From positions 1-49,029 of the forward strand of contig JAFTGB010000024.1 of the NCBI GenBank assembly GCA_017458125.1: a stretch of 49,029 bases of DNA. The letters are read 5' to 3'. The notes beneath the pieces were generated by a model that did not search any database, was not told where the DNA came from, and saw only the letters and a list, made by a program, of their open reading frames with translations. Within the stretch, counting starts at the first letter, position 1; every line of letters begins with the position of its first letter. The stretch comes from Prevotella sp. (GTDB lineage Bacteria > Bacteroidota > Bacteroidia > Bacteroidales > Bacteroidaceae). The translations under genes and the position numbers were made by a program. Positions 1,929-47,212 of the stretch are shown here, in pieces.

Positions 1929-1939
1929 CGTGAGAGAGG

Positions 1940-2726: not shown

Positions 2727-3326
2727 CTAACCGATGATGGCCTGCGCCCATATCGGGATGTCTTCAGTATATCGTTTGAAGAGTTTGCCGTCCGTCATGC
2801 GGAAGATTAGACGGGCCTCAATGTCATCGACTGAGTTGTCATAGATGTAAACGCGGTCAGCCAGAGCCGCCACACGCTTGCAGTTGAGTATTGACTTTTG
2901 ATAGCGAGAGATGATTTTGGGAATGGGCACATCGTGACCGCCTTGCATCACGCGTTTAGCAATGCGCGAGGAGTTAATGGAAGGATGGCATGTGGACACA
3001 AAGAACACACGAATGAAATAGCCCGCCTCGTGGGCGCGACGGATGAAGTCAACCTTGCCCTCAGAAGATAGGACTGTCTCAAAGATGAGGCTTTGCTTGC
3101 GCTTGAGGCACTGTTCACGCTGTTGCTCGCAATATTGGGCTGCTTGCATTACAGCCTCGGGCGAGTTCCAATCGCCGAAGCGTTCTTGTGCCACTTGGTC
3201 GGGATTGATATACAGGGCGTCTTCAAGCCACTCATGACGCAGAATCTTTGAAGTTATAGTTGTCTTACCCGAACCGTTTGGTCCGGCTATAACGATGAGT
3301 ACAGGACGATGGGCTAACTGTGCCAT
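2727..3326 (-). CDS. Zeta-toxin-like P-loop kinase
   Basis: This 199-residue protein opens with LIVIAGPNGSGKTT (Walker A at residues 15-23), then INPDQVAQERFGDW, an LIFETVLSS segment and VFFVSTCHPSINSSRIAKR. These fit the zeta toxin/UDP-GlcNAc kinase-like AAA family, in which the toxin phosphorylates a sugar nucleotide and blocks cell-wall synthesis. The C-terminus (RVYIYDNSVDDIEARLIFR then GKLFKRYTEDIPIWAQ) is closely matched by a fragment at 15004-15168. It is preceded 8 bases upstream by a 52-residue probable antitoxin. The pair interrupts the otherwise typical HU/DUF4248/VapE cassette. Confidence 0.8.
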   Translation of the reverse strand: MAQLAHRPVLIVIAGPNGSGKTTITSKILRHEWLEDALYINPDQVAQERFGDWNSPEAVMQAAQYCEQQREQCLKRKQSLIFETVLSSEGKVDFIRRAHEAGYFIRVFFVSTCHPSINSSRIAKRVMQGGHDVPIPKIISRYQKSILNCKRVAALADRVYIYDNSVDDIEARLIFRMTDGKLFKRYTEDIPIWAQAIIG

Positions 3327-3334
3327 GGCATTAA

Positions 3335-3493
3335 TCAGATGGCAGCAGCAGATTGCCGCAATTCCTCAAAAAAGCGCCGAGTGGCCTGAATGTTTGCTTG
3401 CTTTGCCTCCTCGGCCGCCTCTTTCATCAACTGGCTGAGCACTTCATCGGTAGGCTCGTCCATACTCGTCAGTTTATAAGTGTCAATACTCAT
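3335..3493 (-). CDS. Small antitoxin-like partner of the zeta toxin
   Basis: Fifty-two residues: MSIDTYKLTSMDEPTDEVLS, then QLMKEAAEEAKQANIQATRR and FFEELRQSAAAI. It is a charged, mostly helical protein with a motif LTSxxEPTDExLxxLM that recurs in the ORF at 14822-15007 (RLTSTEEPTDEMLQALM). Both copies lie immediately before a zeta-toxin reading frame, which supports an antitoxin role by context. The family is not the classical epsilon antitoxin, and binding to the toxin is inferred. The start at 3493 is the first ATG after the promoter. Confidence 0.7.
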   Translation of the reverse strand: MSIDTYKLTSMDEPTDEVLSQLMKEAAEEAKQANIQATRRFFEELRQSAAAI

Positions 3494-3519
3494 AGGGCGT
3501 CTTTTATATAATCTGTGTG

Positions 3520-3527
3520 CAAAGATA
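3520..3527 (-). promoter_or_regulatory. -7 promoter element of the zeta toxin-antitoxin operon
   Basis: The minus strand reads TATCTTTG followed by CACACAG. It is 27 bases upstream of the antitoxin ATG at 3493, the normal spacing for a Bacteroidetes promoter. Confidence 0.7.
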
Positions 3528-3575
3528 CGAATATTTTTTTAAGAGAAGCATAAAAACCTAAAATTTCAACCTTTC

Positions 3576-3755
3576 TCACAGGTCGATGCAGAAGTGGTCG
3601 GCTATCCATTTCACGATGTGGGGAGGCAGTACGCGCATGCCGGGCCTCAGGCCCATGGCGGTCAGCTCCTGGCTGTAGGGCTGGCACCAGTTCATCAGGG
3701 TCTTGACGGTCACTCCGGCGGCTTGGGCTATTTGCTGTTTCGTCATTGCTTTCAT
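3576..3755 (-). CDS. DUF4248 family protein
   Basis: The 59-residue product begins MKAMTKQQIAQAAGVTVKTL and ends LPPHIVKWIADHFCIDL. It has an N-terminal helix-turn-helix-like stretch (KQQIAQAAGVTVKTLMNWC), a middle G-x-R-P-G motif and the aromatic C-terminal helix typical of DUF4248. In Bacteroidales this family sits next to BT4734/VapE-like genes and HU/smalltalk cassettes. A role as a small DNA-binding regulator or replication accessory is plausible but unproven. Its stop is 50 bases before the promoter of the zeta operon, read on the minus strand. Confidence 0.8.
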   Translation of the reverse strand: MKAMTKQQIAQAAGVTVKTLMNWCQPYSQELTAMGLRPGMRVLPPHIVKWIADHFCIDL

Positions 3756-3858
3756 AGCGGGTGTATGTTGTTTTTGGATTGTAAATATCTTGTTTTCAAT
3801 GTCTTAGTATCATACTTTGAGGATGTAAACATCATGTTTCGCAAAGCTTTCTTCGAGA

Positions 3859-3971
3859 GTGTGAAGGATGTGAAGGATAAATATAAAACTTTATATATAG
3901 GAAAACATTTAGGTCGGGGGTAAATAATTTCTATAGTAAAAGTTGAAAAACTACCTTCACATCCTTCACAC
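3859..3971. repeat. 18-bp inverted repeats flanking an AT-rich segment (possible origin)
   Basis: The arm GTGTGAAGGATGTGAAGG at 3859-3876 is repeated as its exact reverse complement at 3954-3971. Each arm holds two direct copies of a GTGAAGG unit. The 77 bases between them are AT-rich (ATAAATATAAAACTTTATATA and similar). The block lies directly downstream of the VapE-like gene, ending 8 bases from its stop. Iteron-like repeats flanking AT-rich DNA next to a replication gene recall phage-satellite origins. A regulatory role for DUF4248 or a transcript-end structure are alternatives. Confidence 0.55.
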
Positions 3972-3979
3972 TGCGTCCG

Positions 3980-6244
3980 TCAGAATGGCAAATCACCCTC
4001 TTGCAGGGTGTCCGTCTCGTGCTCTTCAGGCTCTGTCTGAGCCAGCATGGCCTGAATCTTGTCGGCAGGTATCAGAAAGACCTCGAAGAAGTTGCCTTGC
4101 CTGCTGTGCATTTTCTTGTACCCCAGCTTTCCCATAAGGATGCTGACCTTCCGCGAGGACAGTCCGCGCCCTACGTTGCCGCCGTTGAGCAGCTGGCAGA
4201 TCATGGTGGCGTTCATCAGCGTGATTTTCTCGCCCACGCGTGGCGGCCGCAGGCGCGAGCGTATGAGCTGCTCCTCGTCGCTCTCAATGCGGAACGACTC
4301 GTTCTGGGTGTCCACGCTGCGCTGCTCGTCCGTGTCGAACCAGTAGCGGAAGCCCTGTCGCAGCTCCTGGTAGAGCTGTGCGTAGAGCTGGTCGTAATGG
4401 AGCGTCCAGGTGCGCGGGTCGCTGATGCTGGTCACCTTGTGGCAGAGCCAGCGCCGGCTTCCCGTCTCGTCGCTGAGGAAGTGCTCCTGGTTGCCCGAGC
4501 CGCAGAAGGAGGCCAGGCGGTGCTTCTCCTCGCGGAAGCGGGCGTAGGGTCGTCGCTCCTTCACCTTCTGGCTGGTGGCCAGTGCTTTGAGTTCCGATAC
4601 GTCGCTGGCGCTCTGCAGGTCTATCTCCTCTATCTCCACCAGACAGTTCTCGGCCAGTGCCAGATGGTCATCCTTGGTTGCGAACGAGTTGTGGGCGTTC
4701 TCCCAGAAGTACGTCCTCAGCGGTGGCGGCAGCAGGTGGCGGAAGAAGGTGGTCTTGTAGATGCCCTGCGAGCCTATGAGCACGAAGATGGTGTGGTTCG
4801 ACGACAGGTCGCTCATCCATGTGGCCACCATTGCCACCAGCCACTTGTGCAGTGTCCACTCGAAGTAGGAGTCCGCGCCCTGCCTGCGGGCAAACTGCTC
4901 GCACGCCGTGCTCAGCGACTTGCTTCTGACGTAGGTGCACAACTCCTTCACGCGGTCCGTACCGTCCCACTGGGGCAGTGCCTCGATGTATTCGCGCACG
5001 GGGTGGGAGAGTCGCGAGAAGTCGGAGTTCAGCACGTCGCGCACGTCCTGTTTCAGCACGCGCTTGCCGGTGTCTGTCGCCATCTGGCTGCGCATGCTGC
5101 AGAGCACGCGCTCGTCCAGCATGGTCCACTGCGCCTCTGCAGCCTCCTGCGGGGCGTGGGGCTGCACCGGTGTCTTCAGGCGGTACATGGTCTGGTCGGT
5201 CACCAGGTTGTAGACCACCTCCACATGCTGGGTGAGCCACTGGTGTATCTCGGGCAGGGTGATCATCGACGTCTCCTTGGCCTGCCGTCCCTGTCGGTTC
5301 AGCCGCCATGTGCCGTGCTGCTGCGTGCGCTTGTAGCAGCTGCGTATGGTGGCCTCACGCTGACGGGTGTCGTAGTCGGCCCACTCGCGGGCAGCCCACT
5401 CCAGCAGCTCGTCACGGTCCACGCCGTAGCGGTTCATCAGGAACGCCGCGTGCATGACGTAGTCGTGGTGGTGGCCGCTCTGGTAGACCATCCTGCGCCT
5501 GGTCAGCGCCTGCTCCACGCGTGGCCAGGCCTCCTCCGCCGTCACCCTGTGTGTGCCTGCGGCATACTCGCGGCGCGCCTTGCCCCGCTCCTTCTCGTCG
5601 GCGAAGCTGCAGGCCAGCACCTCGTCGTCGCTGACGCTGAAAGGCTCAGCCTCCCAGTTGACGTACACACTGGCGTCGTGGGCCAGCCCGCACAGCCGCG
5701 AGTAGTCGCCGCACTGCGTGTCGTAGTCATGGCCCACCAGCTTGGCGTAGTAGGCGTTGCCCTTCAGAAAGGCTGCGGGCCAGGTGAGCGCAGCGTGAGG
5801 AGTCTCGGGTGACGGGTTGGCTTGCGCCTCGTCCTGAACCCGCACGTAACGGTAGACGACACGGAGCCCCCGGCCGCTGACCGTCCGGTAGGCCATCAGC
5901 GTGTGGGCGTCGTGCGCGGCCTTCGCGAAAGCTGCCTCCACCGCATCATCGCTGCCTATGTGGTCTATGTCGCACAGTGCCAGCCCTGTAAAGCCCAGCA
6001 CGTTCGCCGCACCACGGCCGTTGCCGTCGAACAGCACACCCACCGACACGGCCGGCATCAGCTTGCGCTTCACCTCCTCATCGGCTTTCTCCTTGCCCAG
6101 GACGGCAGCCATCGTACGGTAGCCCTCGGTCTTCGAGGCCACGCTGCTGTCGTGGCGTATCAGCCGTACCACCTCGTCCAGCGCCACCGCTTTGCTTGGC
6201 ACGCTGGTCAGACACTGAAACAAACTTACTTTCTGCTGTATCAT
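3980..6244 (-). CDS. BT4734/VapE-type helicase-primase-like protein
   Basis: This 754-residue protein has an N-terminal BT4734-like domain (about 1-150) with GLALCDIDHIGSDD and MAYRTVSGRGLRVVYRY, which resemble primase-polymerase catalytic motifs. A linker helical domain follows (PriCT-like, about 225-310). From about residue 395 it has a virulence-associated E (VirE/VapE) ATPase domain: WDGTDRV, Walker A-like VLIGSQGIYKTTFF, Walker B-like LVEIEEIDL, and a GSRRWLCHKV segment. Such proteins act as replicative primase-helicases in phages and satellites. It heads a minus-strand block with DUF4248 downstream. The start at 6244 lies 29 bases after a good promoter. Confidence 0.85.
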   Translation of the reverse strand: MIQQKVSLFQCLTSVPSKAVALDEVVRLIRHDSSVASKTEGYRTMAAVLGKEKADEEVKRKLMPAVSVGVLFDGNGRGAANVLGFTGLALCDIDHIGSDDAVEAAFAKAAHDAHTLMAYRTVSGRGLRVVYRYVRVQDEAQANPSPETPHAALTWPAAFLKGNAYYAKLVGHDYDTQCGDYSRLCGLAHDASVYVNWEAEPFSVSDDEVLACSFADEKERGKARREYAAGTHRVTAEEAWPRVEQALTRRRMVYQSGHHHDYVMHAAFLMNRYGVDRDELLEWAAREWADYDTRQREATIRSCYKRTQQHGTWRLNRQGRQAKETSMITLPEIHQWLTQHVEVVYNLVTDQTMYRLKTPVQPHAPQEAAEAQWTMLDERVLCSMRSQMATDTGKRVLKQDVRDVLNSDFSRLSHPVREYIEALPQWDGTDRVKELCTYVRSKSLSTACEQFARRQGADSYFEWTLHKWLVAMVATWMSDLSSNHTIFVLIGSQGIYKTTFFRHLLPPPLRTYFWENAHNSFATKDDHLALAENCLVEIEEIDLQSASDVSELKALATSQKVKERRPYARFREEKHRLASFCGSGNQEHFLSDETGSRRWLCHKVTSISDPRTWTLHYDQLYAQLYQELRQGFRYWFDTDEQRSVDTQNESFRIESDEEQLIRSRLRPPRVGEKITLMNATMICQLLNGGNVGRGLSSRKVSILMGKLGYKKMHSRQGNFFEVFLIPADKIQAMLAQTEPEEHETDTLQEGDLPF

Positions 6245-8484: not shown

Positions 8485-9072
8485 ATGATGCCCATACGAT
8501 TCCTGTTCGTATTGATGATGCTCATAGCACCGTCATTTGCGAAAGCTCAGACTTCGTTTGACTCAGAAGAAGGTTGCCTGAATGTCGTTGATGTTTCCTA
8601 TTCGCAAGGCATAGGCGAATATGGCGACGGGGGTATCGCTGCAAACTATCTGCACGAAAAGTTCAGCAATGATTGCTTCAGCATCGGAGCCGGTATTGGA
8701 TACAGCTATCATCAGAAGTATAAGTTCTCGGCTATTCCCATTTACGTCAGTACACATTACTTCTTTTTAGACCGCAGGTTCTCTCCGTTTGTTAATCTGC
8801 GCGCTGGAGGATTCATCCTATTTAATAAAAAGAATGTGGGAACCAATGAGAAATACTCTCTGTCAAAAGACAAGCAGGGCTTCAGCCTGTTTGTCTCGCC
8901 AAGCGTCGGCGTGAAGATGCACATTACACCAAACATCGGCATTATGGCTTCGATAAGTGACGAAGCCTATCTTGTGAAAGCGTTTGACACCCAAAGGAAC
9001 GATTATAAAAACAAACTGATTCATGATTTGGGAATCAGTATTGGTGTGTGCTTTCAGATTAACGGATGGTAG
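8485..9072 (+). CDS. Outer-membrane beta-barrel protein
   Basis: The 195-residue protein has a signal peptide (IRFLFVLMMLIAPSFAKAQ) and then alternating amphipathic strands rich in Gly, Tyr and Phe: FSIGAGIGYSYHQKY, IPIYVSTHYFFLDRR, SPFVNLRAGGFILF, FSLFVSPSVGVKMHI and a closing LGISIGVCFQI. The size and pattern fit an eight-stranded outer-membrane barrel of the OmpA/OmpW-like or Bacteroidetes porin-like group. No OmpA peptidoglycan domain is present. The start may be 8485 or the next ATG at 8488. A substrate cannot be inferred. It lies between two relics (a regulator fragment and a sigma-factor promoter copy), so this gene may occupy a rearranged site. Confidence 0.7.
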   Translation: MMPIRFLFVLMMLIAPSFAKAQTSFDSEEGCLNVVDVSYSQGIGEYGDGGIAANYLHEKFSNDCFSIGAGIGYSYHQKYKFSAIPIYVSTHYFFLDRRFSPFVNLRAGGFILFNKKNVGTNEKYSLSKDKQGFSLFVSPSVGVKMHITPNIGIMASISDEAYLVKAFDTQRNDYKNKLIHDLGISIGVCFQINGW

Positions 9073-9074
9073 GA

Positions 9075-9147
9075 CAATGTCTCAATGTCTTTATTCGACA
9101 TTTGACCTTTAGTCGCCACAAAGGTACGATTTGCTACACGAAAAAGC
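9075..9147 (-). repeat. Relic copy of an ECF sigma-factor promoter and start
   Basis: This 73-base segment matches 16411-16483 at 67 of 73 positions. On the minus strand it holds a TACCTTTG promoter box and the start of a reading frame, MSNKDIETL, equivalent to MSNKNIETM of the ECF sigma factor at 15940-16437. Downstream of it, on the minus strand, there is no sigma gene, only the 3' end of the beta-barrel gene. Confidence 0.75.
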
Positions 9148-9177
9148 GAAAAAAGTTTATAATTCAAGGAAATTTTG

Positions 9178-9185
9178 TATCTTTG
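9178..9185 (+). promoter_or_regulatory. -7 promoter element of the kinase-like gene
   Basis: TATCTTTG followed by CACC, 35 bases upstream of the ATG at 9221. Confidence 0.7.
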
Positions 9186-9220
9186 CACCATCATTGTAAT
9201 CAATTAAGGCAAACAAAGTA

Positions 9221-10036
9221 ATGAACAATGCAGATTTTTGGGCTTCTGTCCGCACCATCATTGCCGAGGGCTTTACGCCTGAAGGTCTGCTAAAACTGGA
9301 TAGTTATGCAGAACAGTTTATCAGCGGGCGATTGGTATATCAACGATTTTCACCGCACGAACAGCATGGCTGCGCAGCGGGAGGTAATGCAAATGTCATT
9401 GCATCCTTGCTCGCGGGAGCAGAAGTTGGCACAGATTCAGAGAGTCAAGGAGCACTCAGCAACTACCAAAGAGAGTGCCAACAAGGAGCGAAGCAAGAGG
9501 CAGCTATAGAGCATTGGGCCAAAGCAGTAGGCCTATGGACATCAAACGTAGAAGAGCGGTTGACTCTGACTTTGGGCGAGCAAATTGCCGAGGGAGGAGA
9601 GGCAAAGGTTTATGACCACGGATCGACATTAGTCAAGTCAATAGGCCTGGACTATTTCATACAACCCATCTTTGCCCTTGACCGTATCACGCTCCATAAT
9701 ACTTTTTTTCCAGAGACAAGGCTTTTTGTAATCGGTTTTGGAAGAGACAGTAATGGTGAGTTCAAGATTATTGTAGAGCAACCCTTCATCGACGGACAAC
9801 CAGTTAGCGACGAGGATATTTCCGCCTATATGCGCCAAATGGGATTCGAGTTGAAAAATCCGCGAAACTGGACGTATGCCACCCCAGACATCTACCTTAG
9901 CGATATGCATGACGAGAATGTCATTCTTTCGGCTGCAGAAAACATTTTCGTCGTTGACTGCGACATCCGCATCAATACGCCTGAGTTGCGGCAAGGAGGA
10001 AGAAGAACGCTGACCACAGAAGTGAGATTCTTATAA
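9221..10036 (+). CDS. Polyvalent-protein-kinase-like protein
   Basis: The 271-residue protein has a helical N-terminal half and a C-terminal half with the outline of a small protein-kinase fold. From about residue 118 there is a glycine-rich stretch GEQIAEGGEAKVYDHGS followed by LVKSIG (candidate ATP-binding Lys). Near residue 225 is YLSDMHDENVI, resembling a kinase catalytic loop with Asp and Asn, and then FVVDCDIRIN, resembling the metal-binding Asp segment. The N-terminal part (HGCAAGGNANVIASLLAGAE) and overall plan resemble domains called putative polyvalent protein kinase in phage and mobile-element proteins. Activity is inferred. The MutS-like gene begins one base after its stop, so the two are probably co-transcribed. 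Confidence 0.6.
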   Translation: MNNADFWASVRTIIAEGFTPEGLLKLDSYAEQFISGRLVYQRFSPHEQHGCAAGGNANVIASLLAGAEVGTDSESQGALSNYQRECQQGAKQEAAIEHWAKAVGLWTSNVEERLTLTLGEQIAEGGEAKVYDHGSTLVKSIGLDYFIQPIFALDRITLHNTFFPETRLFVIGFGRDSNGEFKIIVEQPFIDGQPVSDEDISAYMRQMGFELKNPRNWTYATPDIYLSDMHDENVILSAAENIFVVDCDIRINTPELRQGGRRTLTTEVRFL

Positions 10037-10037
10037 C

Positions 10038-11912
10038 ATGTATCCAAAGGAACTATATTCCGGGCGCATTACGGTGCTGACGGAGGAGATACGGCAGCTG
10101 AACAAGCACAACCGGCTGGTGGTAGTGCTGGAGTTGTCGGCCATCGGCCTGGCCATTGGCTGTGTGGTGGCTTATACGATGTGGAGCAACGTGGCGGCAC
10201 TGGTGGTGGCGTTATTGTTCATAGCAGCATATGTAGCCATACGCTGGCGAGACAGCAGGAACAGCCGGATGGCGGAAGAGAAGGAGAACCTGCGCAACGT
10301 CTATCAGAAGGAACTGAACTATCTCGACGGCGACTTCTCCGGCTTTGCGTCGGGAGAGCAATATATCAACCCTCGCCATGCGTTCACGCTTGACCTCGAC
10401 ATCTTTGGGTCGCAATCACTCTTTCATCGTATCAACCGCACCGTCACTACTGGCGGCAGCGATTTCCTGGCAAAGGAACTGGCTGAGACGCGGGTGAGGA
10501 CCATCGACGAGATTGAAGCACGGCGCGAAGTCATCCGCGAGCTATCGGAAAAGGAACCGCTGAGAACGGCATTTATGGCGCAAGGCCGTGGGCGACAGAT
10601 TAACACGGCCGACATTTTGGAAGCCCTGCACGCGGTGCAGCAGATGCAGGTCTCTCGCCTTGCCGCCCATCGGCTCACTCATATTGCAGCCGTCGGGAGC
10701 GTCATCGTGTTCTATGGACTATTGGCCGGGGCCATTTTTGGCCCGCTGTCTGGCGCACTACCCATGCTTTGGGTGCTGTTGCAGATTCTGGCAGTCTATC
10801 TGCTTTTCGGTCGAACGCTGAAACGTGTCAATCAGAGCATCAATATCATCCTGCCGCGACTGAGTAACTACGTCAATATGATTATGCTGATAGTGACCGC
10901 CGACCTGAAGAGTAGGGTGGGGTGCGACATCATCAGTCAGCTGTCGGCCGATAAGCAGGATGCACTGAAGTCGTTCCGTCTGCTGAAGGGCATCATCAAT
11001 GCCCTCGACCAGCGCAACGAGATATGGGTGCCCATCTCCAATGCCCTCTATCTGGCCGACTATTTCATCGTACGCCGCTTCCTGCTTTGGCAAGACCGCT
11101 ACATGGGGCACATCGGCGAGTGGATAGCCGCTGTGAGCCATTTCGACGCATTAGTGTCGATGGCCACATTCCGCTACAACGAACCGGCGGCCACGGATGC
11201 CGAACTGGTGGATGTCGACGAGGTGGTCTTCGAGGCGCGAGGCCTCTATCATCCGTTCCTCGGACAAAAGGCCGTGCGCAACGACTTCACCATTGCTGAC
11301 CGTCACTACTACATCGTCACTGGTGCAAATATGGCGGGCAAGAGCACCTTCCTCCGCTCCATCGGCATCAACTATGTGCTGGCCACTTGTGGTATGCCCG
11401 TCTTTGCCGACAGCCTGCGCGTCTCGCTCTTCTCGCTGTTCAGCAGCATGCGCACCACCGACGACCTCGCCCACGGCATCAGCTATTTCAACGCCGAACT
11501 GCTCCGACTGCAACAGCTCATCGAGACCTGCCGGCAGAACCGCCACACGCTCATCATTCTCGACGAAATCCTGAAGGGCACCAACTCGCTCGACAAACTC
11601 AACGGCTCGCGGCTCTTCCTCCAGTCCGTAGCGTCACTCCCCGTCACCGGCATCATCGCCACCCACGACCTCGAGCTGTCGAAGATGCAGCAGCAGTATC
11701 CCGCCCGCTTCCACAACTATTGCTTTGAAATAACGAACGAGAGAGAGAAGAGCGATGCTTGCATCTGCTCTTCCGAACGAGGAGGAATTCGACGAAGTCA
11801 AATCCAGCTCTCCGACGAAATCACCTACACCTATCGCCTCACCGAGGGTGTGGCCCGCAATCAGAATGCCACGCATCTGCTGAAGAATATTTTGAAGTCA
11901 GCATTAAGATGA
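10038..11912 (+). CDS. Membrane-associated MutS-like ATPase
   Basis: The 624-residue protein has two hydrophobic segments near the N-terminus (about 28-68), a middle lever/clamp-like helical region with two more hydrophobic stretches (about 212-260), and a C-terminal MutS domain V. The ATPase motifs are clear: Walker A GANMAGKSTFLRSIG near residue 428, Walker B TLIILDEILKGTNS near 504, and the switch ATHDLELSKM. It lacks the MutS mismatch-recognition domain. Bacteroidetes carry several such MutS-domain-V membrane proteins of unknown role, so mismatch repair should not be assumed. It directly follows the kinase-like gene. Confidence 0.85.
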   Translation: MYPKELYSGRITVLTEEIRQLNKHNRLVVVLELSAIGLAIGCVVAYTMWSNVAALVVALLFIAAYVAIRWRDSRNSRMAEEKENLRNVYQKELNYLDGDFSGFASGEQYINPRHAFTLDLDIFGSQSLFHRINRTVTTGGSDFLAKELAETRVRTIDEIEARREVIRELSEKEPLRTAFMAQGRGRQINTADILEALHAVQQMQVSRLAAHRLTHIAAVGSVIVFYGLLAGAIFGPLSGALPMLWVLLQILAVYLLFGRTLKRVNQSINIILPRLSNYVNMIMLIVTADLKSRVGCDIISQLSADKQDALKSFRLLKGIINALDQRNEIWVPISNALYLADYFIVRRFLLWQDRYMGHIGEWIAAVSHFDALVSMATFRYNEPAATDAELVDVDEVVFEARGLYHPFLGQKAVRNDFTIADRHYYIVTGANMAGKSTFLRSIGINYVLATCGMPVFADSLRVSLFSLFSSMRTTDDLAHGISYFNAELLRLQQLIETCRQNRHTLIILDEILKGTNSLDKLNGSRLFLQSVASLPVTGIIATHDLELSKMQQQYPARFHNYCFEITNEREKSDACICSSERGGIRRSQIQLSDEITYTYRLTEGVARNQNATHLLKNILKSALR

Positions 11913-34719: not shown

Positions 34720-34840
34720 GTTTACTGATAATTGGGGAATTAAAAGTAAAGCTACAAGAGTAAAGGTTAATGCTCACGTCGTTCGACGTGGGCTTTTACT
34801 CGTTAAAGTAGCAATGGTTATCCCCAATACCTCAGTAAAC
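34720..34840. repeat. 121-base nested fold-back sequence
   Basis: Five stems are nested in order: GTTTACTGA/TCAGTAAAC (34720-34728 with 34832-34840), ATTGGGGA/TCCCCAAT (34731-34738 with 34821-34828), GCTAC/GTAGC (34751-34755 with 34808-34812), GAGTAAA/TTTACTC (34758-34764 with 34795-34801) and GCTCACGTCG/CGACGTGGGC (34772-34781 with 34784-34793, one G-T pair). Together they form one long interrupted hairpin between hepT and the next gene. It could be a structured RNA, a miniature mobile element, or an elaborate terminator; it does not look like coding sequence. Confidence 0.6.
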
Positions 34841-34938
34841 GTAGACGAAGTTAAACAGTCCACGTTTCTTTTTCTGTCTTCACCGGCACTATGGACTAAT
34901 CAACAACAAGTACAGTAACAAATTGAAATTCAAAGATT

Positions 34939-35481
34939 ATGAAAAAGTATTTATTCCTTTTGCTGCTCCTGTCGGCAGTGAGTGCAAATGCACAGACGTT
35001 TGACGAGGCTGACCTCATCGGTACATGGAACACAGTGGGCTTGGCTTATGCTCCGTTGGGTATCATTAACATCGAAAGTATCAGTTTGGGTCCTGGAGAA
35101 TATACTCGCACTACCAAAAAATATACTTGTGGAATAATGACGGTAACAACAATTGATAATAATGGTGGAGAAAAGACGGTAACAGAAAGAGTACCGGATT
35201 ATTACATTTCAAATAACAATAAACTTCACATCTGGGTTGACGACAGTTACGCCATGCATTTCATAATAGAGGAACTCACGCCAACAACACTGAAGGTCAA
35301 GACCTACGACGGGCAGAGCTATACGTTCACAAAGGACAATTCCAGTGTGGGGGTTAGGTCTTTAAGCATGACTCGCTCTGCCGACGGTTCCACCTATAAT
35401 CTCAGCGGCCATCGGGTAGAGAATGTCACGGCTGACGGCATCTACATCCAGAATGGCCAGAAGATGGTGATGAAAAAATAG
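34939..35481 (+). CDS. Exported lipocalin-like protein
   Basis: The 180-residue protein has a signal peptide (KKYLFLLLLLSAVSANAQ) and then LIGTWNTVGLAYAPLGI with repeated beta strands (IITELTPTTLKVKTYDG style, here IIEELTPTTLKVKTYDGQSY) that fit the small Bacteroidetes lipocalin-like family. The last 30 residues (GSTYNLSGHRVENVTADGIY, IQNGQKMVMKK) match a short C-terminal motif often found on exported Prevotella proteins, which may be a sorting or surface-attachment tail. Ligand unknown. No clear -7 box is seen near the start. Confidence 0.65.
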   Translation: MKKYLFLLLLLSAVSANAQTFDEADLIGTWNTVGLAYAPLGIINIESISLGPGEYTRTTKKYTCGIMTVTTIDNNGGEKTVTERVPDYYISNNNKLHIWVDDSYAMHFIIEELTPTTLKVKTYDGQSYTFTKDNSSVGVRSLSMTRSADGSTYNLSGHRVENVTADGIYIQNGQKMVMKK

Positions 35482-40745: not shown

Positions 40746-40786
40746 CGAAAGTTGCCTAGTTTCCCAACAAGATTAGGCAACTTTCG
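40746..40786. terminator. Bidirectional hairpin
   Basis: CGAAAGTTGCCTA (40746-40758) pairs exactly with TAGGCAACTTTCG (40774-40786), with a 15-base loop. It lies between the convergent GNAT gene and the last gene of the RiPP operon and is a likely transcript end for both. Confidence 0.8.
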
Positions 40787-40818: not shown

Positions 40819-41412
40819 TTAATAATGTCCCTTGCCATTACATCCACTACATCTACCTGTTCCACGACAAACGCCACAACGTCCATCTCGGGTGTATTGG
40901 TTTCGGCCACTGCCATAACAATACTTGCATGAGCCAGAGCCTTGACAAGAATGACATGTAATAGGGCTGTCATCGTCATCATCATCACCATAATATGAAC
41001 CACCTGAACCAAGCAAATTCTCTGCCGCATGGGAACCGTCGCCAATCCATTGATAATTGTAAACCATCTGCATACTCATTCCCGTCATTGTACTAACTTG
41101 AACTTGCTGCATTCGGGAATAGTCTTTTGAGACCAATATAGCCGTTGTTCTTAATGCAGGCGGCCCTTGTGTTGTTGGTGTATAGACTACAGACCCGTCA
41201 TAGTTAGTTCTTGTATACACGCATTTGCCAACTCCGAAATAGAAAATGTAATCATCGTAGAAAGTAATGTACGTTGCTAATCCTGCTGGAGCTGCTTGCA
41301 AGCCCATTGAAGTTTGACAACTTACGGCACCATAGCTTTTGGTGAAATTCTGCGCCCATGTGCATAAGCAGCACATCAAGGCAAAAATGATACATGATAG
41401 TTTCTTTTTCAT
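40819..41412 (-). CDS. Exported protein with C-terminal DnaJ-like Cys-rich motif
   Basis: The 197-residue protein has a signal peptide (KKLSCIIFALMCCLCTWAQ), a middle part with an Asp-run (YYGDDDDDDSP), and a C-terminal Cys-rich region: CHSCQGSGSCKYCYGSG and CGVCRGTGRCSGCNGKG. These CxxCxGxG units are the zinc-finger motif of DnaJ-type chaperones and of some peptide-binding proteins. It is the last gene of the RiPP operon (12 bases after the small membrane protein). It may bind the Cys-rich product or a zinc ion at the cell surface, or belong to an immunity or folding function; this is inference. Confidence 0.65.
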   Translation of the reverse strand: MKKKLSCIIFALMCCLCTWAQNFTKSYGAVSCQTSMGLQAAPAGLATYITFYDDYIFYFGVGKCVYTRTNYDGSVVYTPTTQGPPALRTTAILVSKDYSRMQQVQVSTMTGMSMQMVYNYQWIGDGSHAAENLLGSGGSYYGDDDDDDSPITCHSCQGSGSCKYCYGSGRNQYTRDGRCGVCRGTGRCSGCNGKGHY

Positions 41413-41424
41413 AACTGATAGACT

Positions 41425-41664
41425 TTATTTGTTCTTAATTTTATAACCATTATCGCAAAAAGGGCATTGCTGTTGTTCTGCCTTGCAGAGAGTGCAGTGG
41501 TGACGATTCTGAAAGTTGCATACAAGACATTTCTCAGTGATAAATGATAGATTGAATAATGAAATGACAGAGTGCCTATAAATATAGGCTGAACAAAAGA
41601 CTATCATAAGCATTGCCAGTCCTGCATATTTTATAATCGTTCTTATTTGTGAAGTTTCTTTCAT
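41425..41664 (-). CDS. Small membrane protein with Cys pairs
   Basis: The 79-residue protein has one transmembrane helix (AGLAMLMIVFCSAYIYRHSV) and then three closely placed CxxC-like pairs (EKCLVCNFQ, HHCTLCKAE, QQCPFCDNG), which look like zinc-ribbon or DnaJ-like finger halves. It overlaps the ABC exporter gene by four bases (ATGA). I do not recognise its family. By position it could assist export or provide self-protection. Confidence 0.55.
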   Translation of the reverse strand: MKETSQIRTIIKYAGLAMLMIVFCSAYIYRHSVISLFNLSFITEKCLVCNFQNRHHCTLCKAEQQQCPFCDNGYKIKNK

Positions 41665-43286
41665 CTTAAAAAGTTTATTGCAACAACATTAGACATATAT
41701 TTTTGTATTTCCTGTTTGTGGGTGATAATGACAATTGTCTTCCCACCGGTTTTTGTTGTTAATCTCTCAAGGAATAGTTTTTCAGTATCAGCATCAAGTG
41801 CTGAAGTTGGCTCATCCATCAAAACGATTCCGCCAGAAGTCAGTAAGCTACGTGCAATTGCAATTCTTTGTGCTTGACCTTCACTTATGCCAAGTCCACC
41901 TTCACCAACAATAGTATCAAGGCCATTTGGAAAGTCCTTCATAACAAAATCAGCTGCAGCATCGTACAATGCTGCCCTCATTTCATCATCTGTAGCATCC
42001 CAATTGCCTAATTTTAAATTATATCGAATACTTCCGCTAATTATGCTGTTACCTTGGGGAACATATATGCAATTGGCGCGTGTTAGTGAACTTACTTTGT
42101 GGATATTGTGTTCATTGTATATGTTTACGGTTCCTTCATTTGGTGTGAGGATTGCAAGAATCAGACGGAAAAGAGTACTTTTCCCAGCCCCTGTTTCACC
42201 AACGATAGCAGTGATACTGCCTGGGGTGAAATCGTGTGTAAATTCTTTGTAAATCCATCTGGAATCGTTAGTATAACGGAAAGACACTTTATTCAGTCTT
42301 ATTCCGAGTTCCCCTTTGAGAATTGTTGGTTCTCCTTTTTCTTCTTTTGGTAATAGTTCAATTTCCAATAGCCTTTCAATTGAAGCAAACGAGGATACAA
42401 AAGCAGGGTACTGAGATTTGAAAAGGACAAATGGCCTTTGTACCTGTCCTGTTAACTGCATAAATGCAATCAACTGAGCAAACGTGAAAGTGTCATGTTT
42501 GATTCCGTACACGCCCCAAATGAATATTGACAAAAATCCAACTGCGAATCCAATATCCACAAAGGATTCGGCTAAAATATCTAATGAGATACGCTGTTTG
42601 ATTTTCAAAAAGAGACTCCGTTGCAAATTTCTTAACTGCTCTCTTATAAAGTCGTTCTTGCGTAAGGTGCTTATTAACTCATGGTGTTGAATGTGCTCTT
42701 GCATAAACGCATTTACCTTGCTATCTTTCAGTCTTACTTCTCGTGATACGGGTATCAGGCGTTTTGTATAGTAGTGGCCTATCAAGATAGATGTTGGCAT
42801 GATGGATAACAATACAAGGGTTAATGTCGGTTCGATAGTCAACAAATAGAGGCAGGTTGCCATTAACTGAATAACCGCATATATCATCACAGGTATGGTA
42901 TATGTGACACTTTGAGTAACGATGCCGACATCAATAGTAAGCCTGTTCATTTCATCCCCTGAATGTATGGACTGTTCTTCTATGATTTTGCTGTTGAGCA
43001 AACTGGAAAAAATGCAAAGCGACAAGTTGTTTTCCATCTTTGCATTAGTCACTTCACGCATATACATTTCTGTTTGCTCGCAAGCTAATTGGAGATTTTT
43101 TGTACTAACAAGGGCAAATACCAAGACTCCCATGCTCCATGATTCCCCTTCAATCAATTTTTGCGTTATTTCAACAAATACCAAGGAAAGCAGAACGGCA
43201 ACACTATTCAGTACGACAGGAATGGCAATGCCATTTCTGTAGCCTTTACTAATTTGCCATAGCCATTTGATTTCTGTTGCTTTCAT
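41661..43286 (-). CDS. ABC exporter (fused permease and ATPase) of the RiPP operon
   Basis: The 541-residue protein has a six-helix exporter membrane domain (about 1-310) and an ATPase domain with Walker A VGETGAGKSTLFRL, Q-loop YVPQGNS, a modified signature LGISEGQAQRIAIARS (usual LSGGQ), Walker B GIVLMDEPTS and the switch His in ITHKQE. There is no C39 peptidase domain at the N-terminus, so leader removal must be done by another protease, probably the ClpP-like one encoded just upstream. It starts four bases inside the end of that gene. Confidence 0.9.
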   Translation of the reverse strand: MKATEIKWLWQISKGYRNGIAIPVVLNSVAVLLSLVFVEITQKLIEGESWSMGVLVFALVSTKNLQLACEQTEMYMREVTNAKMENNLSLCIFSSLLNSKIIEEQSIHSGDEMNRLTIDVGIVTQSVTYTIPVMIYAVIQLMATCLYLLTIEPTLTLVLLSIMPTSILIGHYYTKRLIPVSREVRLKDSKVNAFMQEHIQHHELISTLRKNDFIREQLRNLQRSLFLKIKQRISLDILAESFVDIGFAVGFLSIFIWGVYGIKHDTFTFAQLIAFMQLTGQVQRPFVLFKSQYPAFVSSFASIERLLEIELLPKEEKGEPTILKGELGIRLNKVSFRYTNDSRWIYKEFTHDFTPGSITAIVGETGAGKSTLFRLILAILTPNEGTVNIYNEHNIHKVSSLTRANCIYVPQGNSIISGSIRYNLKLGNWDATDDEMRAALYDAAADFVMKDFPNGLDTIVGEGGLGISEGQAQRIAIARSLLTSGGIVLMDEPTSALDADTEKLFLERLTTKTGGKTIVIITHKQEIQKYMSNVVAINFLR

Positions 43287-43807
43287 TGCTCTGTTGTTGT
43301 TAATCCGACCTCTGAGGCCTTCTCAGCCGATAGCATTTGCCCCTTTCGCATCAGCCGTTTCCAGTATGCCTTGTTCTTCTTTGTTGTACATTCTAATAAT
43401 TTGGCTATTTTATCTGTATTTGCATTTATCTCTCTTACTTCGCGCATTAAGGAACCTGCATTGTATATACCATCTAATCGTTTTGTAACAGAGTGAACAT
43501 AGAATGATGATGTTGGTAAGCAAATACGTTCATCCCCAGCTAAGAAAACTATTATAGCAGCAGAATTAACATAGGAGGTATTCACTATCCTAACATGACA
43601 GTCTAAGGACTTTATAAAATTAAATAATTCCACTGCGGTGTCTATATCACCACCTAAAGATGACATGTTAATAACAAGTTGAGAGCAGTCGGGATGGGCA
43701 GTATTCAGTTGTTCCAGTTTGTCAATAAACTGGTGTACGCTATCAGAATCTATTTTATCTGAAAACGTGATGGCGATTGTAGCCTTATTGGAATCCATTT
43801 TCATCAA
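43283..43807 (-). CDS. ClpP-fold serine protease of the RiPP operon
   Basis: The 174-residue protein follows the ClpP/crotonase-like protease fold: MSSLGGDIDTAVELFNFIKS (oxyanion loop SLGGD), then VNTSYVNSAAIIVFLAGDER with candidate nucleophile Ser82, and TSSFYVHSVTKRL with His105 (spacing 23, close to the 25 of ClpP). The third catalytic acid is not obvious: the usual TDRD segment reads LMRKGQMLSAEKASEVG here. It overlaps the second radical SAM gene by 23 bases and the exporter gene by 4. By context it may remove the leader peptide; it could also be a scaffold with weak activity. Confidence 0.75.
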   Translation of the reverse strand: MMKMDSNKATIAITFSDKIDSDSVHQFIDKLEQLNTAHPDCSQLVINMSSLGGDIDTAVELFNFIKSLDCHVRIVNTSYVNSAAIIVFLAGDERICLPTSSFYVHSVTKRLDGIYNAGSLMREVREINANTDKIAKLLECTTKKNKAYWKRLMRKGQMLSAEKASEVGLTTTEQ

Positions 43808-44882
43808 TTAGCCTAACATATTTGATAGCATTACTAACCGACTGCCTATATTCTTCATCCTCAAATGAATGTTCTTTTTCGGACGCTTGATTCAAAAGGA
43901 GGTGTGCAGAAGCATAGGCTACGACTTTTTGAGCCTTACACATCAGTTCAAGGTTGATGTTCTTCTCAAAACTCCTATGATGCTGATAATTCATGGCCAT
44001 ACAATTTTTACAACACCAGCGAACAGGACAATTCATGCATTCCACTGGCAACAATTCATGTTTTACTTGTCTGGAATCATCAAGTATGGTTTTTCGCTTG
44101 TCATCACCTTGTACGATTCTTGAAAACATGTGGCACGGCAATAGTTCTCCATCACAATCGTATGTATGTATATTCGCCACTGACCAGCATGGAGGGTCAG
44201 CATCTTCTGGAGATTCTGGCATCCAGAATGCCTTATGGAAGTCAAGGTCGAATAGTGGCTTCATAATTGAAACAGATGGATTGGCAATGTAAAAATCGCA
44301 TAGACTATTCAGTTGCTTTTTTAACTCTTCACATGAATTGTCATCCCACCTGACACCTTGCGCCAAACCACCAGTAACATCCAATCCTCTGCCATAAAGA
44401 TAATGCAGAGATTCAAACAAGAAGTTTACGCTATCTGGGAAAATCGTCATCTTCACAGGATTCTTTGGCCAATATTCCTGAAAAAAGTCTATGTCAAGAT
44501 CTGAAACTCCTCGGTTAATCTTATTTGCTTCTGGAGTGCCGTCCATACTTAGACCAAGCGTAAATCTTTCCTTGTGTGCTATAAACCATGCTTTCATTTC
44601 GTCCGTCAATAATGTTCCATTTGTACGGGAGAAGATTCTTATTTGGGGCGAACGATTCCATACCCACGAACAAATTTGAGGTATGATAGGGAAGTTGCCT
44701 AATGGCTCTCCACCTAATAAGTCAATGCTCTCGATGTCATCAAAACCATTTGAAAATTCTTTTTCAAGAATATGTCTTGCTTGCTCCCAAGACATGTGCT
44801 TAGGAGCCTTAAACTTCTCATAGCAATACCTGCAATTCAAATTGCAAGAATGGCTTATTAGTAATAGAATGGTTTTGTGCAT
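43785..44882 (-). CDS. Radical SAM/SPASM peptide-maturation enzyme 2
   Basis: The 365-residue enzyme opens MHKTILLLISHSCNLNCRYC with the CxxxCxxC iron-sulfur site at Cys13, Cys17 and Cys20, followed by IDLLGGEPLGNFP (GGEP SAM-binding motif). A SPASM region fills the C-terminus: PPCWSVANIHTYDCDGELLP, ECMNCPVRWCCKNCMAMNY and LMCKAQ. SPASM enzymes often install thioether or other cross-links on peptides. The start at 44882 is chosen because longer readings cross the precursor gene in another frame. It follows the precursor gene by 59 bases. Confidence 0.85.
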   Translation of the reverse strand: MHKTILLLISHSCNLNCRYCYEKFKAPKHMSWEQARHILEKEFSNGFDDIESIDLLGGEPLGNFPIIPQICSWVWNRSPQIRIFSRTNGTLLTDEMKAWFIAHKERFTLGLSMDGTPEANKINRGVSDLDIDFFQEYWPKNPVKMTIFPDSVNFLFESLHYLYGRGLDVTGGLAQGVRWDDNSCEELKKQLNSLCDFYIANPSVSIMKPLFDLDFHKAFWMPESPEDADPPCWSVANIHTYDCDGELLPCHMFSRIVQGDDKRKTILDDSRQVKHELLPVECMNCPVRWCCKNCMAMNYQHHRSFEKNINLELMCKAQKVVAYASAHLLLNQASEKEHSFEDEEYRQSVSNAIKYVRLIDENGFQ

Positions 44883-44941
44883 TTGCGTGTCAGTGGTTAA
44901 AATACACGGAGAGGCTTTGCACCTCCCCGTGTAAATGTTGA

Positions 44942-45142
44942 TTAGTACTTGCTTGATGTGGCCTTGCACTTGCTGATGCAAGTACCACGGCATGTACCTT
45001 TGCAACCACCGCCACCGCTTCTGTAACAGTCGGTGCAGTCGTTGGAGTTCTGGGACTGGTGCTCGGCGATGGGGCCGTTCACTTTACTGTACTCATTGAG
45101 TTTGAGTTCCAGTGCCTTAAGGGCTTCGAGATTCATTTTCAT
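44942..45142 (-). CDS. Six-cysteine RiPP precursor peptide
   Basis: The 66-residue peptide reads MKMNLEALKALELKLNEYSK, VNGPIAEHQSQNSNDCTDCY, RSGGGGCKGTCRGTCISKCK and ATSSKY. The first about 30 residues are helical and Leu/Glu/Lys-rich, like RiPP leaders. The core has six cysteines (36, 39, 47, 51, 55, 59), the last four spaced C-x3-C-x3-C-x3-C, with a GGGG stretch that could mark a leader-core hinge. Two radical SAM genes flank it, one on each side on the same strand. A GGAGGA lies six bases before the ATG, an unusually good ribosome site for this phylum. I do not recognise a named family. The ATG at 45136 is an alternative start. Confidence 0.85.
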   Translation of the reverse strand: MKMNLEALKALELKLNEYSKVNGPIAEHQSQNSNDCTDCYRSGGGGCKGTCRGTCISKCKATSSKY

Positions 45143-45148
45143 ATGAAA

Positions 45149-45184
45149 TCCTCCAAATTTAAAATGTTAATAATTAATTATTAA
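45149..45184 (-). promoter_or_regulatory. Precursor upstream region: -7-like box, strong RBS and palindrome
   Basis: On the minus strand TTAATAATTAATTATTAA (45167-45184) is a perfect 18-base palindrome, followed by TAAATTTG (45154-45161), a -7-like box, and GGAGGA (45149-45154), which overlaps it by one base and sits 6 bases before the ATG. Either the precursor has its own promoter with a very short leader, or this is a strong ribosome site in the operon transcript. Confidence 0.5.
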
Positions 45185-45190
45185 TGGGCA

Positions 45191-46387
45191 TCAAGCCATT
45201 TCTTTATGATTTACTATGTATGGACTAAGTGATTTCTCTATATCAAGTTTTTGCAACACCGTATATGCGGTCAAAGCCGTTTTTCCATATTCGGCATCCA
45301 GCTTGCTTAAATTGTCAATCATCGCTATTCGTTCAATTTGAAATTCACAGGCAGTCATTGCTTCTGCAAGAACTAGCGGGCACCACCTCTTGTCCCTATT
45401 GGAGAAATCGCCTCTGTATTTGTAGTTAAATCCTGGGCATGTAGGACAAAAGCAGCGAAGAACACAGTCCTTGCAATAGTCATCTGCCATCAATCCTGGC
45501 TTCTCCCATTCCACGTTGTCAACAGGCAATGCCCGCTCTTTGCCAAGAACTATGGGGGTGAACATATGACATCCATAACGATTTCCATCTATGTCATAAG
45601 TCACCATATTCAAACCAGTTCCACACCTTTGAAGTTGTTCTCTTTCAGATGAGGGCAAATTGAAAACATCGACTATACGCTTTAACTTGTTCAATGGGGT
45701 TAAGGACGTTTCCTTCAGATATGCGTCTTTTAGAATGCAAAGCTGTTCTCTATAAAGAAGAGCATCCTCCAGAGTCCAATCAACGCCTTGCGCCAATGAA
45801 GCCGAAACGCCATAGCCCTTGCGCTGTATGCTAAGTACTCCTTCTGCCAAGTTTGGCAAAGTTTCTTTAGATATCGTCATCTGAAACTCTTGCTCTGGCC
45901 ACAAGTCAGAGAAGAAATCTAAGTCGATTGCATATTTGTCGGTCCCTCTATTAGTAGATTGCATTTTGCCACTGCCATCATAACTGGCTCCTAAGATGAT
46001 GCTTTCCTTGTGCTCGCGAAGCCAATCTCTGACATCTTCGGTAATCAGCGTTGCATTTGTAGATGCAAAGCAAAGCCAAGGCACATCAATTGCGCCACTT
46101 TCTAACCACTCAACAACTTCTTTTATTAGCGGAAAGTTCATCAGCGGTTCGCCACCCATAAAATCAATTTGCAATTCGTCGAACCTGTCATCTTCCAAAA
46201 CGAATTTGGCTTCACGTTTTATAATGTCTTTTGCTTGTCCTATGCTCATATAAAGCCCTTGCTTATGGGTTTCATAGCAATAACTGCAATTCAAATTACA
46301 GGCATGGGTGACCATCAGCATACACATTCGCCTTCTTGCCGAATGTTCTTCTTCCCAAATGGATTGGCTTTTACTTATTGTGACCAT
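45191..46387 (-). CDS. Radical SAM/SPASM peptide-maturation enzyme 1
   Basis: The 398-residue enzyme has the CxxxCxxC site in HACNLNCSYCYETHK (Cys30, 34, 37), LQIDFMGGEPLMNFP (GGEP), and a SPASM-type C-terminus with GCHMFTPIV, DDYCKDCVLRCFCPTCPGFN and RWCPLV. It resembles enzyme 2 in plan but not closely in sequence. The start at 46387 is used because the TTG at 46414 lies in the promoter box. It is the first gene of the operon, and the precursor follows after 48 bases. Two different maturases suggest two kinds of modification, or a heteromeric enzyme. Confidence 0.88.
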   Translation of the reverse strand: MVTISKSQSIWEEEHSARRRMCMLMVTHACNLNCSYCYETHKQGLYMSIGQAKDIIKREAKFVLEDDRFDELQIDFMGGEPLMNFPLIKEVVEWLESGAIDVPWLCFASTNATLITEDVRDWLREHKESIILGASYDGSGKMQSTNRGTDKYAIDLDFFSDLWPEQEFQMTISKETLPNLAEGVLSIQRKGYGVSASLAQGVDWTLEDALLYREQLCILKDAYLKETSLTPLNKLKRIVDVFNLPSSEREQLQRCGTGLNMVTYDIDGNRYGCHMFTPIVLGKERALPVDNVEWEKPGLMADDYCKDCVLRCFCPTCPGFNYKYRGDFSNRDKRWCPLVLAEAMTACEFQIERIAMIDNLSKLDAEYGKTALTAYTVLQKLDIEKSLSPYIVNHKEMA

Positions 46388-46488: not shown

Positions 46489-46722
46489 CTATAATTCCTT
46501 CTTGTAAAGCTCAAAGAAGTCATAATTTAATATTTTTGAGACTCTTAGCAGGAGTTCGGTATCTATCGTCGAACGTTTGAATAATTTGTAAATATTGGAA
46601 CGGTCACAACACAATTTGCGTGCAAACCAACTTACAGTTCGCTCTTGTCTCTCCAGTTCTTCCTTTATCAGGTTGCCAATATGCAATCTTGGCGGAATCC
46701 TATTGTGTTGCTCGCCCATCAT
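46489..46722 (-). CDS. XRE-type small HTH regulator upstream of the RiPP operon
   Basis: Seventy-seven residues from the ATG at 46722: MGEQHNRIPPRLHIGNLIKE, then LERQERTVSWFARKLCCDRS, NIYKLFKRSTIDTELLLRVS and KILNYDFFELYKKEL. It is a compact helix-turn-helix protein, a Bacteroidetes type with HIGxLIxxELxRQxRTVxWFA and a C-terminal DFFxxYxxEL. The longer frame from 46839 adds 39 residues with no family resemblance, so I favour the shorter start. It is oriented like the RiPP operon and ends about 70 bases before its promoter. It is a candidate regulator of the operon, by position. Confidence 0.7.
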   Translation of the reverse strand: MMGEQHNRIPPRLHIGNLIKEELERQERTVSWFARKLCCDRSNIYKLFKRSTIDTELLLRVSKILNYDFFELYKKEL

Positions 46723-47212
46723 TAAACGAATAAAACTTGCAGCAACCCCAACAAGCGGCTTATAATCATTTGAGCATATACAAAAAGAAGCGCGGGTGCT
46801 GTATCCGTTACTCGTCCCACTGCTCAAGGCGTCTCGCATTGCCCCTATTGTCTGACGAGCAACATGCAGAGCCCACGCCTTGATGTAATATAGTTATCCT
46901 CTTGATCCTTTAATCGAACAAAGAGGATGCGTATAAACACATCATGCGGGTATCTACCCGTTGCTTTGTCTTTGACAATAGGTTCGAGTTTGCGAGACTT
47001 CGAGCAGTCAAAGAACAAAGCGTTGATAAACGCCTTTTCTGTAAATGCGCCCCCACCCATCCGCTCTGCACATCTTTACAATGTAGCCGCTTCCAAGTGA
47101 AGACGGCTGCAAAATTACTCATTTTATTCAAAAAAGGTGGCGAAAAGATACAAAAATCTAAAATTTTTAATTATTTCTTGCCTAAAATGAAACGAATTTG
47201 GTAAATAATGAC
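46723..47212. other. Degraded intergenic stretch with short minus-strand ORF
   Basis: A minus-strand frame at 46845-47060 encodes 71 residues (TEKAFINALFFDCSKSRKLE, PIVKDKATGRYPHDVFIRIL), which I cannot match to a family. A TAATTTTG box (47110-47117, minus) lies upstream. Frames to both sides are short, so this seems to be decayed DNA. The composition is AT-rich at 47115-47212. Confidence 0.45.

Follow-up and report, generated by a model that had tools for sequence, protein, structure and literature searches.

Many of the radical SAM enzymes that mature ribosomally synthesised and post-translationally modified peptides (RiPPs) carry a RiPP recognition element (RRE), and several act without a leader, according to a review (PMC8326336) that also places an N-terminal RRE in CteB, the enzyme of the SCIFF system. 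PapB, a ranthipeptide enzyme of the SPASM type, joins Cys to Asp or Glu (PMC9413430). Two radical SAM enzymes per peptide system are reported for the sactipeptides ruminococcin C and thuricin CD (PMC8188230, PMC12093266). RiPP clusters with radical SAM genes are also described from Bacteroidales (PMC10352776); one of these, BGC5, has two radical SAM genes and LanC-like genes and appears to lack transporters, and ClpP does not occur in the main text of that report. Here we describe a related locus in a stretch of 49,029 nucleotides from Prevotella sp. (assembly GCA_017458125.1, contig JAFTGB010000024.1; called the window here). The locus lies at 40819–46387 on the minus strand and encodes two radical SAM/SPASM enzymes (rSAM1 and rSAM2), a six-cysteine precursor peptide, a ClpP-fold protein, an ABC exporter and two small Cys-rich proteins.

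The locus is real and conserved and, judged from sequence, is in all likelihood a RiPP cassette. We read it as a horizontally moving cassette whose peptide would be matured with thioether bonds, trimmed by the ClpP-fold protein and exported by the ABC protein, and we give this reading a probability of about 0.7. By analogy, the cassette would work like the CXXX-repeat systems (TIGR04115, TIGR04117, TIGR04114) and the ranthipeptide systems.

The cassette and its relatives

An earlier note on this DNA had described seven minus-strand genes with overlaps or short gaps. Seven open reading frames (ORFs) were found at those positions, with three overlapping junctions (20, 4 and 4 nucleotides, nt) and gaps of 48 nt between rSAM1 and the precursor, 59 nt between the precursor and rSAM2, and 12 nt between the two small proteins, which carry Cys pairs and a Cys finger, respectively. 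The six-Cys precursor, the two radical SAM/SPASM enzymes and the ClpP-fold protein of that note were borne out by the ORFs and their Pfam domains.

The first relatives came from scanning short exact patterns over an 84,980-species genome collection. This gave seven loci: Prevotella from goat colon (L015), a Bacteroidales metagenome-assembled genome (MAG; L016), a Barnesiella MAG (L017) very similar to L016, Paramuribaculum (L020), two Selenomonadales MAGs (L018, L019) and a Chlorobiaceae MAG (L021). In total, 17 loci were compared, namely six from Bacteroidales (the window, L015, L016, L017, L020 and L135), ten from the Selenomonad order (L018, L019 and L118–L125, with L121 and L125 both coming from a single genome) and L021. 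The cassettes occur in distantly related gut and rumen bacteria. A modifying enzyme is conserved beside the precursor in 17/17 loci, all of which were found through rSAM1 (interrupted in L135, at 8887–10085); the precursor is present in each and twice in L122. All 17 also carry a ClpP-like gene, with its frame broken in L016 (11412–11914) and its end cut by the contig in L121. In 14 loci the gene after ClpP encodes an ABC protein; a contig end cuts it in L016, L019 and L122. In L121 the contig ends before any ABC gene, and in L021 the ABC gene precedes ClpP and is just 24% identical over part of its length. The cassette of the Selenomonadales has four genes. rSAM2 is found in 6/6 Bacteroidales and 0/10 Selenomonad cassettes once its cross-match to rSAM1 is set aside, and the genomes of L018 and L019, searched at E 1e-20, returned only their rSAM1.

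The earlier note had read the locus as a RiPP operon, proposed a homologue search and held that failure to find the precursor with these maturases in any other genome would speak against it. The precursor lies beside rSAM1 in 16 further loci, in nearly conserved order, so this genomic condition against the reading did not come true. The two-enzyme layout of that note holds for the Bacteroidales but not for the Selenomonad cassettes. At the sequence level the locus is more than chance: other genomes repeat its gene order almost unchanged, and the reading frame of the precursor has been kept across phyla.

With an rSAM1 profile at E 1e-50, matches were found in 11/189 genomes of the order of L018: nine have near full-length rSAM1 above 690 bits, present twice in one genome and containing an inner TGA in one, while a further genome has it in two pieces and another has a partial match. 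At the same threshold, 12/297 genomes of the family of L020 matched, three of them at ortholog level (L016, L017 and L020), as did 4/299 genomes of the genus of the window, where only its own genome and G1607 (with an inner TAA) reached that level. At E 1e-20, 12/201 genomes of the family of the window matched; its own was the only one at ortholog level, the others being 33–40% identical. A precursor search of 393 genomes of the order (E 0.001) returned the own genome only; the genomes of L015, L016, L017, L020 and L135 came from other searches. Across the genomes sampled, few Bacteroidales carry the cassette, in a patchy pattern, and it is met more often in Selenomonadales.

Several observations bear on mobility. 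The GC content of the operon is 0.402, against 0.519 in window positions 1–40000, which suggests horizontal transfer. The closest rSAM1 relatives outside Bacteroidales are Selenomonad proteins, 66–70% identical, which fits transfer between phyla. By eye, an integrase-like gene lies just upstream of the cassettes in L016 and L017 and shares 57% identity with the gene in the corresponding position in L135, where mobilisation-like genes follow it; recombinase-like ORFs lie upstream of the L019 and L124 cassettes. The integrase and mobilisation genes of L135 have no match in the window. A plasmid search with rSAM1 gave 54 records, all below 60% identity, and viral contigs gave 44 rSAM1 loci at 22–42% identity and no relative of the precursor profile. 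In L135, a SusC/SusD-like pair (by eye; 1623–4865 and 218–1645) begins 4 nt after the cassette ABC gene, as if it were the peptide system's own outer-membrane receptor. A wider radiation of related radical SAM genes, next to different small Cys-rich ORFs that are either of CXXX type or carry repeated CSSGCGNNY-like motifs, is seen at L136 (three radical SAM genes), L026, L029, L030 and L035. Searches of open-licence articles in PubMed Central (PMC) matched none for FibroRumin, rumen/Selenomonas or Bacteroidetes/Negativicutes aspects.

Precursor and radical SAM enzymes

The precursor (44942–45142) is 66 residues long and consists of a 35-residue leader (45038–45142) and a 31-residue core (44945–45037) that contains all six Cys in the pattern C-X2-C-X7-C-X3-C-X3-C-X3-C. 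We compared 16 precursors from 15 loci, omitting L017 as a duplicate and not including L135. The conserved leader and variable core typical of a RiPP precursor are clear: mean pairwise identity is 70% in the leaders and 23% in the cores outside aligned Cys (15 precursors, L021 excluded). C-X3-C makes up 66/85 successive Cys intervals in the 16 cores, compared with 9.5 (sd 2.9, maximum 22) in 5000 within-core shuffles. Gly fills X2 in 38 of these 66 repeats, and X3 is taken by Ser (23), Thr (13) or Gly (11), 47 in all; the residue after X3 is necessarily Cys, since the repeat is so defined. The four cores from two-enzyme cassettes start with CXXCY, and 5 or 7 residues, counted from the Tyr, precede the repeats. 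One-enzyme cores begin their repeats at once or after an initial CXXC or CXC, and L118 has one inner CXXC.

Both enzymes match the Pfam Radical_SAM family (PF04055) with E values of 4.5e-08 for rSAM1 (45191–46387) and 1.7e-09 for rSAM2 (43785–44882). The start of rSAM2 is most likely the ATG at 44882, 59 nt past the precursor stop; an alternative TTG at 45005 would overlap the precursor. rSAM1 is the constant enzyme of the family. All ten of its cluster-type Cys are invariant in the seven aligned rSAM1 sequences, namely residues 30, 34 and 37 of the CX3CX2C motif and residues 255, 273, 305, 308, 314, 317 and 336. We take the latter seven to suffice for two auxiliary clusters by SPASM spacing. 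The predicted model of rSAM1, which ends in two helices, has a mean predicted local distance difference test (pLDDT) score of 68.9 with a poor SPASM part, so it was used for the overall fold only. The best match of rSAM1 in the Protein Data Bank (PDB) is CteB (5WGG/5WHY), both by sequence (2.2e-14) and by fold (3e-12). CteB is a thioether former. Because rSAM1 has no more than 29 residues ahead of its first cluster Cys, an N-terminal RRE such as that of CteB does not fit there.

We compared the locus with NCBIfam, considering the best 25 models listed. The PapB-type model NF047865, which shares a SPASM enzyme and a Cys-rich core with the window, ranks best for both maturases, at 113.5 (rSAM1) and 100.6 bits (rSAM2) against a cut-off of 340. 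The cores of this family differ from PapB substrates in being poor in Asp and Glu, which occupy X3 in 4/66 repeats, and its cassettes differ in having a ClpP-fold gene. The CXXX-repeat maturase model ranks third for rSAM1 and second for rSAM2 (83.6 and 82 of 350 bits). These systems share the CXXX spacing of the core, and the present family differs from them in its own conserved leader and in having ClpP and ABC genes in the cassette. SCIFF/CteB (TIGR03974) scores 80.9 of 425 bits and the RumMC model 49.1 of 720 bits for rSAM1. The precursors of ruminococcin C and thuricin CD differ from those here, and so do their operon layouts. TIGR04117 matches the precursors weakly (L125, E 1.2e-05; window, E 0.005): against the CXXX target models the window precursor scores 16.9 of 50 bits, and three further precursors reach at best 25.3 of 50 (TIGR04117) and 17.9 of 20 (TIGR04114). 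Since none of the tested cut-offs is reached, we do not file precursor or maturases under a named family. Thioether chemistry is nevertheless favoured by the closest matches, which are PapB for both maturases and CteB for rSAM1.

In a quick tree of 47 enzymes (the L039, L017 and L033 rows dropped as duplicates; the interrupted rSAM1 of L135 not in the set), rSAM1 (15 rows) and rSAM2 (5 rows) each form one clade, with SH-aLRT support of 100 and 99, which rules out rSAM2 as a recent duplicate of rSAM1. The second enzyme of L021 groups with the rSAM2 clade (SH-aLRT 98) on a long branch. rSAM2 could be a synergistic partner in complex with rSAM1, like TrnC/TrnD of thuricin CD, that adds no second type of bond. 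That the Selenomonad cassettes manage with rSAM1 alone agrees with such a role, while rSAM2 retains its radical SAM and SPASM Cys and the cores of two-enzyme cassettes differ by their CXXCY and spacer. We consider a pure partner role possible, at rather less than even odds.

Proposed leader cleavage and export, and accessory proteins

The ClpP-fold protein (43283–43804) matches Pfam CLP_protease (2.6e-17). Its model is good (pLDDT 90.7), its nearest solved folds are ClpP, and ClpP chains make up all of the best 50 fold-search matches listed. The residues Ser81 and His104, which we take to be catalytic, are invariant in the 12 aligned ClpP-like sequences from the 17 loci. The presumed place of the triad Asp, located through PDB alignments, is Gly155 in the window and Gly in 11/12 sequences, and Asp is found there in none. 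The protein thus has the fold of the ClpP/S14 family but not its Ser-His-Asp triad. The layout had been said to cover leader cleavage, and a ClpP-fold gene is indeed part of it; cleavage by this protein is doubtful because of the missing Asp, and we propose trimming by the Ser-His site with marked reservation. The protein might instead be a pseudoprotease scaffold, or a subunit that has to mix with host ClpP, with a host protease cutting the leader. Neither Clp nor S14 occurs in the main text of a 2023 review of RiPP leader proteases (PMC10885120), which agrees with this alternative, as does the incomplete triad. The invariant Ser and His and the presence of the gene in every cassette argue for a leader peptidase, and no other peptidase gene was seen kept beside the cassettes, whose neighbours were not searched specifically for peptidases. 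We regard it as quite possible, a little short of even odds, that the protein is not the leader peptidase. Among open-licence PMC articles, none joined ClpP or Clp protease with radical SAM RiPP maturation, and of those listed on ClpP, RiPP, precursor peptide and protease, none was on a ClpP maturase by its title.

The exporter (41661–43286) matches ABC_membrane (4.2e-23) and ABC_tran (2.8e-24). Pfam gives no C39 peptidase match, in agreement with the earlier description of an exporter without a peptidase domain, and the protein therefore lacks the N-terminal C39 domain that marks a peptidase-containing ABC transporter. Two small proteins follow. The Cys-pair protein (41425–41664) has, by eye, one membrane helix followed by three CXXC pairs; its only homologue among the 16 cassette loci searched is in L015 (44%). 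The finger protein (40819–41412) has a signal-peptide-like N-terminus, again by eye, and C-terminal Cys finger repeats. It had been labelled a DnaJ-finger protein; the Cys motif is present, but Pfam DnaJ_CXXCXGXG gives E 0.18, under the cut-off, and the label stands by motif alone. Both proteins fall below every curated family cut-off. Homologues of the finger protein occur in L016, L017, L020 and L135, where the gene sits between rSAM1 and the precursor and not at the cassette end. Both are accessory: the Cys-pair protein is found in 2/6 and the finger protein in 5/6 Bacteroidales cassettes, and neither in any of the ten Selenomonad cassettes. A weak second relative of the finger protein (30%, E 2e-6) is encoded elsewhere in the same genome (in the region 120513–122968 of contig C72, in part L201), approximately 1.9 kb after another copy of the RNA described below.

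These exported-looking, CXXC-rich partners fit an alternative in which the enzymes make no thioethers. Other residues would then be altered, by epimerisation or by C–C or C–O bonds, the Cys thiols would stay free, and the product would be a metal- or redox-active Cys peptide handled outside the cell by the finger and Cys-pair proteins. The scores of the maturases, far below the cut-offs of the listed thioether families, leave room for this explanation. Whether compared by model, sequence or fold, however, the nearest enzymes form thioethers, and the Selenomonad cassettes do without CXXC partners. A free-thiol product is in our view improbable.

Under the favoured thioether reading, the ribosome would make the 66-residue precursor, in which a conserved leader precedes a variable core built of CXXX repeats. 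rSAM1 would recognise the leader and join the sulfurs of core Cys to carbons of nearby residues in the C-X-G-S/T-C repeats, which would close thioether rings like those of ranthipeptides or sactipeptides. In Bacteroidales, rSAM2 would add a second modification, probably at the CXXCY of those cores, or partner rSAM1. The ClpP-fold protein, as a cytoplasmic Ser-His ring, would trim the leader, and the ABC protein would export the product, whatever function or bioactivity that product may have. The finger and Cys-pair proteins of Bacteroidales would likely be immunity or handling factors.

Several points weigh against this scheme. No NCBIfam model among the best 25 listed reaches its cut-off for the enzymes, the ClpP-fold protein or the precursor. 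The triad Asp is missing from the proposed leader peptidase. That rSAM1 seems to lack an RRE is concluded from its length and from a model of middling quality rather than from an RRE profile, and the role proposed for rSAM2 derives from co-occurrence. In L119, a gene other than an ABC gene follows ClpP, and the cassettes were not seen to share any one immunity gene.

Putative upstream regulator, structured RNA and significance

The operon had been called complete. Its seven genes are there, but the limits were drawn too narrowly upstream, where a helix-turn-helix (HTH) gene and a structured RNA lie 5' on the same strand; they may control expression. Past the last gene, an inverted repeat with a 17-pair stem (40746–40786) is a possible operon end; it was listed as terminator-like on the plus strand only, and its tail on the minus strand is not T-rich. 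The HTH protein, a putative local regulator of 77 residues (46489–46722, ATG start at 46722), matches Pfam HTH_3 at E 0.0011 and 19.3 bits, below the cut-off of 23. A longer ORF of 116 residues (46489–46839) was rejected as the full gene, and its first 39 residues were dropped because that DNA is conserved as RNA. Homologues adjoin radical SAM genes in L015, L023, L024, L028/L033 and L136. A stretch of approximately 600 nt, made up of the HTH gene and the DNA on its 5' side, shares 79% identity with L015 and 70% with L024, with changing frames.

The RNA (minus strand, 46783–47038) is approximately 260 nt long, ends 60 nt before the HTH start and closes with a terminator-like hairpin and U run. 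The fold of window positions 46780–47085 has a z score of −8.55, and a covariance model matches 46783–47007 with 184 bits. Copies were found by BLAST in 27/119 relatives and by the covariance model in 30/57, with 11 copies in the own genome. In an alignment of 31 copies, 24/45 pairs change on both sides; 94.1% of pair cells are paired, compared with 80.2% in shuffles and 37–47% in slid controls; the comparison with the slid controls is biased towards the structure, which comes from this alignment itself. Covariation scores 0.490 versus 0.227, and the count of pair types (78 versus 71.5) is less telling. The 3' strand of the final hairpin (alignment columns 347–351 with 374–378) can alternatively pair with columns 282–288, where 97.7% of cells are paired (shuffles 96.5%) and C-G is replaced by U-A in three copies. 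This pairing is weakly supported, because a single pair changes on both sides, as in 223/500 shuffles.

At the gathering score Rfam gave no match to the RNA, and permissive mode added a single match elsewhere that is due to chance. The RNA lies 5' of 9/28 distinct Bacteroidota radical SAM peptide loci (from 31 sources, L127, L128 and L136 repeating L104, L105 and L109): the window, L015, L020, L024, L032, L131, L112, L029 and, weakly (E 9e-4), L136. Three of the six Bacteroidales cassettes have it, as L016, L017 and L135 gave none, and the covariance model found none 5' of L021, L035, L037 and seven Selenomonad loci. An element restricted to RiPP loci is ruled out, since most copies precede other genes. 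The own genome has ten copies besides that of the cassette; an ORF begins 35–85 nt after nine of them and 288 nt after the remaining one. A weaker second copy in the window (34721–34872, plus strand, 39.5 bits) lies 66 nt before an exported-looking ORF of 180 residues (34939–35481). The copies, which include those at L139–L167 and L198–L207, often lie 35–115 nt before an ORF; many of these ORFs look exported and some belong to radical SAM peptide clusters. A 2021 survey lists HMP2_1881, a 108 bp element found mainly in Bacteroidetes, near radical SAM domains, and expressed in 13/13 places (PMC8040213). HMP2_1881 may be part of the same RNA and is an unconfirmed candidate. With its strong covariation, 11 copies in one genome and no Rfam match, the RNA is a lead independent of the cassette.

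Tentatively, and with more doubt than belief, we suggest a radical SAM RiPP class that crosses phyla, in which an RRE-free SPASM enzyme would form rings in a CXXX-repeat peptide and a Ser-His ClpP-fold ring would be its dedicated leader peptidase. Bacteroidales would add a second maturase, and their cassettes can sit under an RNA that ends in a terminator-like structure, is absent from Rfam and also serves other radical SAM peptide clusters as well as surface-protein genes. The cassette is small, comes with natural precursor variants (16 compared) and contains its own comparison of one-enzyme and two-enzyme forms; because both forms occur, the job of the second maturase is directly readable. 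A relative of ClpP is an unexpected part for a peptide-making cassette. Should it cut the leader, a protease class that the main text of PMC10885120 does not name would be added to RiPP maturation; should it not, some other reason has to be found for a conserved ClpP without the Asp in a peptide pathway.

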